Source: Gemmataceae bacterium (GTDB lineage: Bacteria; Planctomycetota; Planctomycetia; Gemmatales; Gemmataceae). Taken from it: a stretch of 64,000 nucleotides of DNA. The notes under the pieces were generated by a model. The model was not told where the DNA came from. It saw only the letters and a list, made by a program, of their open reading frames with translations, and ran no database searches. Positions within the stretch are counted from its first letter, which is position 1; each line of letters opens with the position of its first letter. Below are positions 17,741 through 48,777 of the stretch, one piece after another. The translations under genes and the position numbers were made by a program. The stretch covers positions 62,001 through 126,000 of the forward strand of contig SIAJ01000003.1 in NCBI GenBank assembly GCA_009691845.1. The letters are read 5' to 3'.

Positions 17741-17798
17741 GCAGGCACACTCCGTGTGCCTTTTTTTCTTGAACGGCACACGGAGTGTGCCTCCTGCT
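17741..17798. repeat. Double palindromic repeat, family A
   Basis: Two internally palindromic units, GGCACACtccGTGTGCC and GGCACACggaGTGTGCC, face each other, with outer TAGCA/TGCTA flanks also pairing. The first unit is followed by TTTTTTT (17761-17767), so it could also terminate the plus-strand gene ending at 17691. Confidence 0.9.
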
Positions 17799-25288: not shown

Positions 25289-27445
25289 TCAGCCCTGCAC
25301 CGGCATGCAAACCTGTTCCAGGAGCTTTTCGCACTGCTCCTGAATGAGATCGGCCAAATTGGGCAGCGGCTGGCCTTCCGGCAGGGCTTCTTTGATTGCC
25401 GCCAGCCAGCGTGGGAAGCTGTAGAGCATGCCGAGAATCTCAATCGAAACGGGCTCCAATCGGGCATGCTTGCCGGCCTTCTCGGCTTCCTGCCAGACGG
25501 TCTTGCTCTTTCCGGTGAGAGCCAGGTCATCCTCCGGACGCATCAAAATGAGATGATCGATCACCGTGGGCTCGGTGTCCATCGAACTGAGTTTGATTTC
25601 GAGATCTTTCGGCTTGCCGGCCGAGCGAGCGAGAAACAGGCCGATGCCGACCTTCCAGGGCTGGCCATCCTTGCACGCCCAGTGCGCGATACTCGCGACG
25701 CCGTAGGTCGGATGCTCGCCGAAGGAATATTCCGGCACGACGTGCTGCAATCGCCACGGACCAAGTTTCACGCCGTGCTCGTGGCACGTTTGCAAGAACG
25801 CCCCCAGGCCAGCCTGAATTTCTCTGGTCGCTCCGGTGATCGCACCATCCGGCATGAGCTTGCGCATTGCCGAGCGTTGTTCCTGTGCCCAAAGTTCGGT
25901 CATGCCACGCGGCGTCATTGCCCCGCGTGCTGTCTCACTCGATTCGTCGACACGAATGATCTCCACGGATTTCACGGTCACGTTTTCAGGCACGTACGAG
26001 TCGGCCGGCAAACGACTTTCCGGAATTCCGGCCATCGGAATCTCATCAGCCGGGTCGGAGATCCGGTTACTTGCTCCACTCCAAGATTCGGCGTCGTAAA
26101 CAATGTGGTCGAACAAATGTCGGCACTGTTGCAGCATGTCGCGGAGTGTCGGTTCCGTCACGGCGATGCGGCGAACCTGTTCTTCCGTGAAGGGATAGAG
26201 CCCGTCGAACTCCGAAGAATCGCGAAGATCGCGGAGACTACCTTCCAACCGAGCTTCGACTACCTTTCGCACCAAGTCGGCCGGCGGGGCTTCCAGACGA
26301 ATGGCTTTCACCGTGCCATGATCCGGTACATGAACGGGGTTATTGAGTCGATCCTGGATATAGCCATCCAGGGACGGAACAAAACGGTTCCATAAACCAC
26401 GCTCGGCGAAGACCAGAAAACAAACGCCGTCAAGCTGGTGCATCACCTTCACGATTCCAGCGAAGAACGTCTCGGCCACCTTGTGAGCGTCGTCACTGCG
26501 GCGAGCCAAAAGCAAATCCTCAAGCTGATCGAACGCGACGACCACGGGCGTCTTCAATGCGCGGAAGACTTCCATCATCACCTTGAAGAGTGAAAGGACC
26601 AGGTCCTGCCGCGAAGGGCGGACCTGATACGGCATCTCGACAAAATCGTGCGTGAGGAAGCTGGCGAGTTTCGCCTCATCCTTGAGAAGATGGGCGCGGG
26701 TAAACCCCTTGTAAATCTCACGGCGCATGAGGCCAGCCGTGTTGTGGGCCTCGGCTTTCTCGACGTACGCCTCGATCAGTTCGATCGCTTTCTCGGTCGA
26801 AACGCCTGCTTCCGCGAGTGCCTGAGCCACGGGCATTTGCCCTCGGCCGAGTTGGCTATGCCCGCCGACATAATCCACGAGCCACTGGCAGCGATCGAGC
26901 GATTGGCTCACGCCCAGGCCTAGTTTCCGCGTCCAGCGGCCAAGGCCTGGGGCGGGAATCAGATCGAGCTTCTTCTCGTTTGGAAGAGCCGAGATCGCGT
27001 TCGACAGCAAGCGGCGAACAACGAACTCGCCGATGTGGTCTAACGGCCGAACACCTCGCTGCCGCCCACCGCCGAGCAGCGTGTCAATGATCTGAAACAG
27101 CAGGTACTCCAGAAAATCCGCATCTTTCTGGTAGGTGCCCGGCGTCACGAGGAGTTGCCAGGCCCCATCGCCGCCGTGCTTGATCGAGTGCAGCAAGTGC
27201 GTCTTGCCGGCTCCTTTGTTTCCCAGGACAGGAATGACTTCCGAGTGAGTGTTTGGGTCGTATCGATATAAATCGATAATACTCAGCAGCAGATTCCGCT
27301 CGGCCGCGTAAAGTTCGGGCACGTGGTAGCGGGCGCAAACTTCATCGTCCGGATTGCGGGCGAAGTAGTTACGGAACGGATTGCCCGAGCGCCGCAGCGA
27401 TTCCACGGCACGATCCATTCGCGGGCTAACGGCTGTTGCGGTCAT
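25289..27445 (-). CDS. Large P-loop ATPase of a two-gene module, function unknown
   Basis: 718 residues, ATGA overlap with the upstream gene. Walker A is LGNKGAGKTHLL (75-82 core). Walker B is VVVAFDQLEDLL (about 301-306), the hhhhDQxE form seen in STAND/KAP-like and BREX-associated ATPases. Residues 90-290 are helical and contain no recognised motif. Residues 360-460 look like the AAA lid/winged-helix part (YPFTEEQVRRIAVTEPTLRDMLQQCRHLF). A separate C-terminal domain of about 200 residues (GLGAFLQTCHEHGVKLGPW, ASIAHWACKDGQPWKVGIGLFL, DHLILMRPEDDLAL) is compatible with a restriction-endonuclease-like or ligand fold but I see no firm catalytic motif. Confidence 0.6.
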   Translation of the reverse strand: MTATAVSPRMDRAVESLRRSGNPFRNYFARNPDDEVCARYHVPELYAAERNLLLSIIDLYRYDPNTHSEVIPVLGNKGAGKTHLLHSIKHGGDGAWQLLVTPGTYQKDADFLEYLLFQIIDTLLGGGRQRGVRPLDHIGEFVVRRLLSNAISALPNEKKLDLIPAPGLGRWTRKLGLGVSQSLDRCQWLVDYVGGHSQLGRGQMPVAQALAEAGVSTEKAIELIEAYVEKAEAHNTAGLMRREIYKGFTRAHLLKDEAKLASFLTHDFVEMPYQVRPSRQDLVLSLFKVMMEVFRALKTPVVVAFDQLEDLLLARRSDDAHKVAETFFAGIVKVMHQLDGVCFLVFAERGLWNRFVPSLDGYIQDRLNNPVHVPDHGTVKAIRLEAPPADLVRKVVEARLEGSLRDLRDSSEFDGLYPFTEEQVRRIAVTEPTLRDMLQQCRHLFDHIVYDAESWSGASNRISDPADEIPMAGIPESRLPADSYVPENVTVKSVEIIRVDESSETARGAMTPRGMTELWAQEQRSAMRKLMPDGAITGATREIQAGLGAFLQTCHEHGVKLGPWRLQHVVPEYSFGEHPTYGVASIAHWACKDGQPWKVGIGLFLARSAGKPKDLEIKLSSMDTEPTVIDHLILMRPEDDLALTGKSKTVWQEAEKAGKHARLEPVSIEILGMLYSFPRWLAAIKEALPEGQPLPNLADLIQEQCEKLLEQVCMPVQG

Positions 27446-28206
27446 TTCGAACCTCCATGTTCGTCGATTGTCCAGCGTATCGATGCGTAGAAAGCGACTT
27501 CGTGCCCGACCATCAAGGCAAAGGCAGGCTCGGGCAAGGCATAGAGCGGGCCTGTCCAGGGGTGCAAGTAAATCTGATGATCTTCGTGCAAGAGACGAAG
27601 AGCGTCGTGAAACTGGCCAACGCTGGCTTGTTCCGCAAGGCCGAGTCGGCGAAACAACTCAGGCAAGGGACAATCGTGGGCCGCCTCGGAAGCAGCGTGC
27701 CATTCGGCAAGTTGTGTCTTTACGTCGGCAATCAACAAATCATTGGCGGCAGTGGCTGCGGGACGCGGCCGAGTCAAAGTTCCATTCATGGCATGCCCAT
27801 TCAGCGAATAGTGATCGGTAAGTCGCGGCAAAACTTGCTCAACGACGGTTCGGAGCGAAGCCAATCCGGCAGACATCTCGGTTACACTTCGACTCAGCTC
27901 CAGCACAGAGGCCTGTCGATCCTCGATGATGCGAACGAAGTCTTCCAAAACCTGCCGAGGATTCGATTGACGCACCAGAAATCGCTTGCCCTTGTCCGTG
28001 ATTGCCACGAGTTCGCGGCCATTGGCTTCGGTATCGAGACTTCGCAATAGGCCATCGGACTTGGCCCGATCCGCTGCGGTGCGGGCAAACGAGGTCGCGG
28101 GAAACAGGCCAGAACTTGATTTCTGTGCAAGCAGGGGCATGCCCGCCGGTTCCACGGCAGCACGGGTGAGTGCGTCGAGAATAAGTTGCGTGGACTTATC
28201 GGCCAA
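27442..28206 (-). CDS. Winged-helix-like and coiled-coil partner of the large ATPase, function unknown
   Basis: 254 residues from TTG 28206, with GGGAGGG 4 bases upstream. The N-terminal 80 residues look like a winged helix (LILDALTRAAVEPAGMPLLA, RAKSDGLLRSLD, LVAITDKGKRFLV). A predicted coiled coil follows (VLEDFVRIIEDRQASVLELS, LASLRTVVEQVL). The C-terminal 90 residues look like a second winged helix (PLPELFRRLGLAEQASVGQFHDALRLL, IYLHPWTGPLYALPEPAFALMVGHEVAFYAS). It probably binds DNA and recruits or regulates the ATPase whose start it overlaps by four bases. No named family recognised. Confidence 0.55.
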   Translation of the reverse strand: MADKSTQLILDALTRAAVEPAGMPLLAQKSSSGLFPATSFARTAADRAKSDGLLRSLDTEANGRELVAITDKGKRFLVRQSNPRQVLEDFVRIIEDRQASVLELSRSVTEMSAGLASLRTVVEQVLPRLTDHYSLNGHAMNGTLTRPRPAATAANDLLIADVKTQLAEWHAASEAAHDCPLPELFRRLGLAEQASVGQFHDALRLLHEDHQIYLHPWTGPLYALPEPAFALMVGHEVAFYASIRWTIDEHGGSK

Positions 28207-28233: not shown

Positions 28234-28293
28234 GTAGTAGGCACATTCCGTGTGCCGTTCAGACGTTCACGGCACACGGAGTGCACCTACTAC
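28234..28293. repeat. Double palindromic repeat, family A
   Basis: GTAGTAGGCACATTCCGTGTGCC and its inverse, joined by about 10 bases, with ACTAC at the far end. Outer arms 28234-28258 and 28269-28293 pair with few mismatches. It lies upstream of the ATPase module. Confidence 0.88.
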
Positions 28294-35492: not shown

Positions 35493-35518
35493 GTCGGCAC
35501 ACGGAGTGCGCCAGCTAC
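35493..35518. repeat. Half copy of palindromic repeat, family A
   Basis: GTCGGCACACGGAGTGCGCC followed by AGCTAC. Only one unit with a decayed second arm, just downstream of rplU. Confidence 0.7.
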
Positions 35519-48721: not shown

Positions 48722-48777
48722 AGTAGCCCGCACACTCTCAGTGCGGGAGGTCGGCACACGGAGTGTGCCGACTACTA
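48722..48777. repeat. Double palindromic repeat, family A
   Basis: AGTAGCCCGCACACTCTCAGTGCGGG joins TCGGCACACGGAGTGTGCCGACTACT. The right unit is a perfect palindrome with a GGA loop. The DUF1501 stop codon follows directly at 48778. Confidence 0.88.

Follow-up and report, generated by a model that had tools for sequence, protein, structure and literature searches.

A conserved AAA+ ATPase and winged-helix protein pair of the Gemmatales, a candidate chromosome-associated module

Closest Described Systems

Mobile neighbourhoods encoding an ORC/CDC6 ATPase, an inactive REase, an active REase, HerA/FtsK and winged-helix proteins have been described (PMC10853773), and BrxC and BrxD of BREX, together with their winged helices and coiled coils, have been placed in the ORC/Cdc6 clade (PMC12839542). 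Two adjacent genes found in a Gemmataceae bacterium, in the window studied here (the whole stretch of DNA analysed, 64,000 nucleotides), share traits with both:

25289..27445, minus strand: P1, AAA+ ATPase of 718 aa (ORF; full-length homologues in Gemmatales)
27442..28206, minus strand: P2, 254 aa, with a winged helix, a long helix, a linker and a winged-helix-like domain (ORF; AlphaFold2 model)

Regarding the ORC/CDC6-iREase systems, P1 would share their order, with an AAA+ ATPase of the ORC/STAND type and, behind it, a domain predicted to be REase-like and apparently non-catalytic, and P2 corresponds to the separate companion protein with winged helices; the differences are that no HerA/FtsK and no active REase occur in the operon, that in P1 the REase-like domain is not followed by a winged helix, and that the pair is not mobile, being core and slow-evolving in one order. 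By analogy, P1-P2 resembles the ATPase/adaptor half of an ORC/CDC6-iREase-HerA/FtsK system.

As for BREX, BrxC/BrxD and the DUF499 ATPases also combine an ORC/Cdc6-like AAA+ domain with winged-helix and coiled-coil elements; in the pair, however, this architecture is split over two genes, PglZ and BrxX are missing, and no homology of P1 to BrxC/BrxD was detectable beyond the P-loop. BREX was discarded on the grounds that P1 had no BrxC_BrxD profile match, no PADLOC match and no BREX neighbours. The KAP NTPases, such as the KAP protein of PDB 8fnu, have weak profile similarity to P1 in the P-loop region (E=0.004) and, like P1, a long insert separating Walker A from Walker B, but the P1 insert has no TM helices and its Walker B differs; membership was rejected, as P1 has neither a KAP_NTPase Pfam match nor a TM segment. 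The Sll1717-family P-loop ATPases (NF047389) have the P-loop region in common with P1, and they were set aside because P1 scored 18 bits, where the cut-off is 75, and the C-terminal half had no counterpart. Likewise rejected were the housekeeping AAA+ proteins DnaA, Hda, DnaI and ORC, whose similarity to P1 is at the P-loop level only, and the ESCRT-type winged-helix/coiled-coil systems (PMC10936438), linked to this locus only by a reference to planctomycetes.

The nearest sequence leads for P1 are AAA_16, ORC-CDC6-like and KAP. The AAA_16 score of P1 is 20.5 bits, below the cut-off of 32.6, with the paralogues at loci L065 and L064 just above it; for ORC-CDC6-like (PF24389), P1 is not listed and its best paralogue has E=0.0011, with 18 of the 27 bits required. 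Among the AAA+ ATPases, P1 is of the ORC/STAND/KAP type. The original prediction, a STAND/KAP- or BREX-associated ATPase, was right as to a STAND/KAP/ORC-like protein, while BREX and KAP membership fail the curated cut-offs. P1-P2 is nameless in every curated library searched and no curated family covers either protein, so that the pair stays, as first proposed, an unassigned two-gene module, with no described family matching over the full length.

The P1-P2 Locus

The stop codon of P2 (TGA) and the start codon of P1 (ATG) share the bases ATGA at 27442-27445, in agreement with the four-base overlap first read from the ORFs; this overlap is particular to the species, as most orthologous pairs are separated by a gap of ∼20-250 bases. 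P2 starts with TTG, which is judged right because its homologues begin with a conserved MADK at the same place. As for P1, full-length homologues with ∼55-78% identity occur in dozens of genomes, which makes it a real gene far beyond chance.

The neighbours of the pair in the window are ordinary, housekeeping genes, namely folC, an MFS transporter, a pilT-like ATPase, a transglutaminase, rtcB, an archease and fabH, plus a gene with a weak match to the secretin short domain (STN). No nuclease, methylase, toxin or HerA gene adjoins P1-P2 among them, as had been noted for the first three, PADLOC gave no match for the pair, and Rfam found no structured RNA near it at the gathering threshold.

Just upstream of P2, at 28234-28293 of the window, lies the palindrome GTAGTAGGCACA..CGTGTGCCG / CGGCACACGGAGTG..CCTACTAC. 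Copies of its arms are found in the window at 17748-17787, 35495-35508 and 48752-48765, and the genome contains 100 arm matches versus 0 with the reversed control, which marks a dispersed, REP-like element; its interpretation as a dedicated P2 operator was rejected for this reason.

Architecture of P1

The AlphaFold2 model of P1 has a mean pLDDT of 77.6, and hydropathy predicts no transmembrane segment. The features of the protein are the following:

26081..27445, minus strand: ATPase domain, residues 1-455 (AlphaFold2 secondary structure; weak AAA_16 match)
27200..27223, minus strand: Walker A GNKGAGKT, residues 75-82, invariant or nearly so in 30 homologues
26516..26545, minus strand: Walker B VVVAFDQLED, residues 301-310 (D306, E309), invariant in orthologues
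26348..26350, minus strand: R366, candidate arginine finger, invariant in orthologues and paralogues
26141..26143, minus strand: R435, candidate sensor-2 arginine in the lid (EPTLRDML), invariant in orthologues and paralogues
25922..26086, minus strand: disordered linker, residues 454-508, of variable length between species (pLDDT ∼30; alignment)
25301..25921, minus strand: C-terminal domain, residues 509-715, with predicted REase-like fold (strand/helix order; weak Foldseek matches)

The AAA_16 match is weak (E=7e-4) and recurs in 27 of the 30 homologues, and the two Walker motifs are separated in the model by a large helical insert (residues ∼105-298). The Walker B Asp and Glu are invariant in the paralogous modules too, and the Walker A/B positions, R366 and R435 are unchanged even in paralogues with ∼26% identity. 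The positions of R366 and R435 are plausible for an arginine finger and sensor 2, respectively, and both remain candidates on the basis of the alignment. Both Walker motifs of the original prediction, GNKGAGKT and the FDQLED form, are present and (nearly) invariant, and the C-terminal domain of about 200 residues, which it had left without a name, is real and conserved in the alignments.

This C-terminal domain is modelled with the order helix-strand-strand-strand-helix-strand-helix-strand, that is the order of the restriction-endonuclease fold, and is therefore predicted to be REase-like. The top Foldseek matches of the P1 model are Msp1-type AAA+ proteins; weak matches further down include RPB5 subunits and a T7-endonuclease-I-like protein, tied to the C-terminal domain by their length, and neither P1 nor P2 had any Foldseek match below E=1e-3, which makes the fold assignments weak ones. 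When the C-terminal domain was compared by itself with Pfam and PDB profiles, nothing usable was returned. Since the conserved D/E-x-K is absent from the third strand in the alignment, the domain is probably inactive, an assignment made with moderate confidence from the model.

Architecture of P2

P2 is modelled as two domains around a long helix:

27967..28206, minus strand: N-terminal winged helix, PadR/MarR-like, residues 1-80 (AlphaFold2 pLDDT ∼96; Foldseek)
27808..27960, minus strand: long helix, residues 83-133 (AlphaFold2)
27475..27750, minus strand: conserved C-terminal winged-helix-like domain, residues 153-244 (alignments)

Foldseek matched P2 to PadR/MarR structures with a probability of 0.99-1.0, but with E values of ∼0.02, and no Pfam family matched the protein. 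The long helix is probably a dimerizing coiled coil, and the model has a disordered linker between it and the C-terminal domain, the latter recognizable from the motifs DCPLPELF...FHDALRLL...WTGPLY and modelled at lower confidence than the N-terminal winged helix. AlphaFold2 thus agrees with the two winged helices and coiled coil first proposed for the partner, with less confidence for the second winged helix.

Distribution, Linkage, and Selection

A search of 149 relatives detected P1 in 90 of them (83 of 91 Gemmataceae, 6 of 7 in the sister family, and one weak match outside), in a single copy per genome; close relatives of it occur in records named, among others, Zavarzinella, Limnoglobus, Fimbriiglobus and Gemmata. 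In 392 genomes of the phylum, a profile of 30 P1 orthologues gave no other convincing match. Several of the genomes without P1 are incomplete; two of the 65 high-quality family genomes lack it too, hence P1 may not be strictly essential.

Wherever a locus includes enough upstream sequence, P2 directly precedes P1 on the same strand, with the exception of genus g14: three of its species (loci L020, L023 and L024) have no adjacent P2, and in the two of these species inspected (as loci L134 and L135) a divergent, unrelated gene stands beside P1 instead. Conservation of the two genes together, raised at the outset, thus holds within the Gemmatales apart from this genus. The wider conservation across planctomycetes did not hold, the pair being confined to one order, and no defence genes recur beside it. 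The only recurrent neighbour found is folC, directly downstream of P1 in 12 of 31 loci, where the order P2-P1-folC is kept.

As for selection, the identity of P1 within the family is mostly 62-67%, against 50-56% for the neighbouring folC in the loci that have it, and the dN/dS of close pairs is 0.05-0.09 for P1 and 0.08-0.18 for P2; the pair is under strong purifying selection, in a housekeeping and not an arms-race pattern. A search with a type C paralogue (described below) found no relatives in plasmids or phages, and one with the mixed profile A5 found none in viral contigs; with all these searches empty, a mobile or viral origin was rejected.

Paralogous Modules and the Solo P2

An extra, paralogous module occurs in 8 of 92 family genomes and consists of a P2-like gene, a full-length P1-like gene, whose product retains the C-terminal domain, and a third gene whose product has one or two predicted TM segments. 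Modules of type B are in genomes G003 and G038 (loci L063 and L064), and those of type C in G030, G031, G077, G084, G085 and G089 (loci L065-L069). The third gene co-occurs exactly with the paralogous ATPase (6/6 and 2/2 genomes), and profile searches found no homologue of it in the other 85 sampled family genomes. A membrane third partner for the core pair was also rejected, as such searches of the genome containing the window found no homologue. A similar three-gene layout is present at locus L092, in another planctomycete family, and its partner protein matches the P2 C-terminal domain (hhalign E=1.8e-5, from a single comparison).

A second P2 paralogue, unaccompanied by an ATPase gene, is present in the genome containing the window (G000:C2:17552-18292, corresponding to L136 8520-9296). 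Counting only matches away from the P1 locus, this solo P2 is found in ∼75 of 98 Gemmatales genomes with E below ∼1e-37; in L136, L141 and L143 it adjoins trpS, recognized by eye, and in L136 the two are divergent. The solo P2 is retained in genus g14, where the P1-adjacent P2 is missing, and for this reason it may be an alternative adaptor for P1.

Possible Roles of the Pair

The reading placed highest, with a probability of about 0.4, is that P1 and P2 form an ATPase-adaptor complex with a housekeeping function in the Gemmatales, most likely acting on the chromosome. P2 would dimerize through its long helix, with the winged helices binding DNA and/or P1, and P1 would form an ATP-dependent AAA+ ring or filament on DNA, its Walker A/B, candidate arginine finger and candidate sensor 2 all being invariant; its C-terminal domain, of predicted nuclease fold and probably non-catalytic, would be a module contacting DNA or a partner, and not a cutting one. 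For P1-P2 we infer complex formation, DNA binding and loss of nuclease activity alike. The core second P2 paralogue suits exchangeable adaptors for P1, and the PadR/MarR likeness of P2 speaks for a DNA-acting complex, even if winged helices can be pure protein adaptors; the g14 loci, with P1 and no adjacent P2, count against this reading. Between defence on one side and replication or chromosome control on the other, all named in the original prediction, the latter fits better because the pair is single-copy, core, slow-evolving and folC-linked, without defence neighbours or phage/plasmid copies.

The PadR/MarR-like N-terminal domain of P2 also fits a transcriptional switch, in which P2 would be a regulator of that type, its own operon included among its targets, and P1 a STAND-like controlling ATPase; the solo P2, which stands alone like a regulator and is divergent from trpS in several genomes, and the palindrome just upstream of P2 point the same way. 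However, the palindrome is no dedicated operator, with its ∼100 arm copies dispersed genome-wide, P2 carries a further conserved domain as well as a long, putative coiled coil, and P1 keeps a candidate arginine finger, an element that STAND proteins are, to our knowledge, generally held to lack; a switch is thus considered unlikely, although it comes next after the chromosomal complex. Somewhat further down is a defence or conflict module, with P1-P2 as a simplified ORC/CDC6-inactive-REase member that senses foreign DNA and has its effectors encoded elsewhere. Its architecture does resemble the ORC/CDC6-iREase-HerA/FtsK neighbourhoods (PMC10853773), more distant planctomycete ATPases are fused to HerA-like domains with mad8/HerA PADLOC matches, and the B and C modules are patchy (8/92 genomes); the core pair, instead, is single-copy, slow-evolving and syntenic, has no adjoining nuclease, HerA or toxin, no phage or plasmid copies, and no PADLOC match.

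The third protein with predicted TM segments, tied exactly to the paralogous modules, is a counter-hint, as it could indicate membrane signalling rather than a chromosomal role. Along this line, the pair could be the soluble remnant of a membrane-linked ATPase remodelling or chaperone machine, with which the three-gene layout of L092 and the Msp1-type AAA+ matches at the top of the Foldseek list of P1 would agree. The core pair, though, adjoins no membrane gene, its genome was found to lack such a homologue, the Msp1 likeness is generic for AAA+ and has a low TM-score, and winged-helix partners suit DNA better, so that this explanation was ranked as the least probable of the four.

With regard to the preferred chromosomal complex, the best reading is that the Gemmatales retained the pair from a family with relatives in conflict systems, and its role may lie in nucleoid organization, replication or segregation. 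The pair constitutes a core, strongly conserved ATPase system without a name, confined to one order whose cell biology is unusual; should its role be chromosomal, it would link housekeeping to a family known from anti-virus conflict, and would offer a concrete candidate for the condensed nucleoid of Gemmata, which is unexplained (PMC3440768). A bolder and quite improbable extension is that the Gemmatales domesticated a conflict-system ATPase-adaptor module as an important chromosome-organizing or loading machine with two alternative adaptors, P2 and the solo P2, which would aid the permanently condensed nucleoid reported for Gemmata. The chromosome idea can be tested by comparison with the solo P2 and with the sporadic paralogous modules.

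Related Genes in Other Planctomycetes

The weak matches to P1 at the phylum level (L071-L086) have mainly the ATPase core in common with it, and of the distant loci, L087 and L092 alone have partners with detectable similarity to P2, with L093 borderline and L091 negative. In two planctomycete loci (L089 8471-11680 and L091 6575-9727), an AAA_16-type ATPase is fused to a HerA/mad8-like domain, and each fusion is preceded by a gene whose product in L089 looks winged-helix-like by eye; these fusions are possible undescribed HerA-capture conflict systems. Finally, locus L088 (1947-11714) has in one cluster a related ATPase, a protein that by eye is GHKL-ATPase-like, and a protein of 1461 aa.
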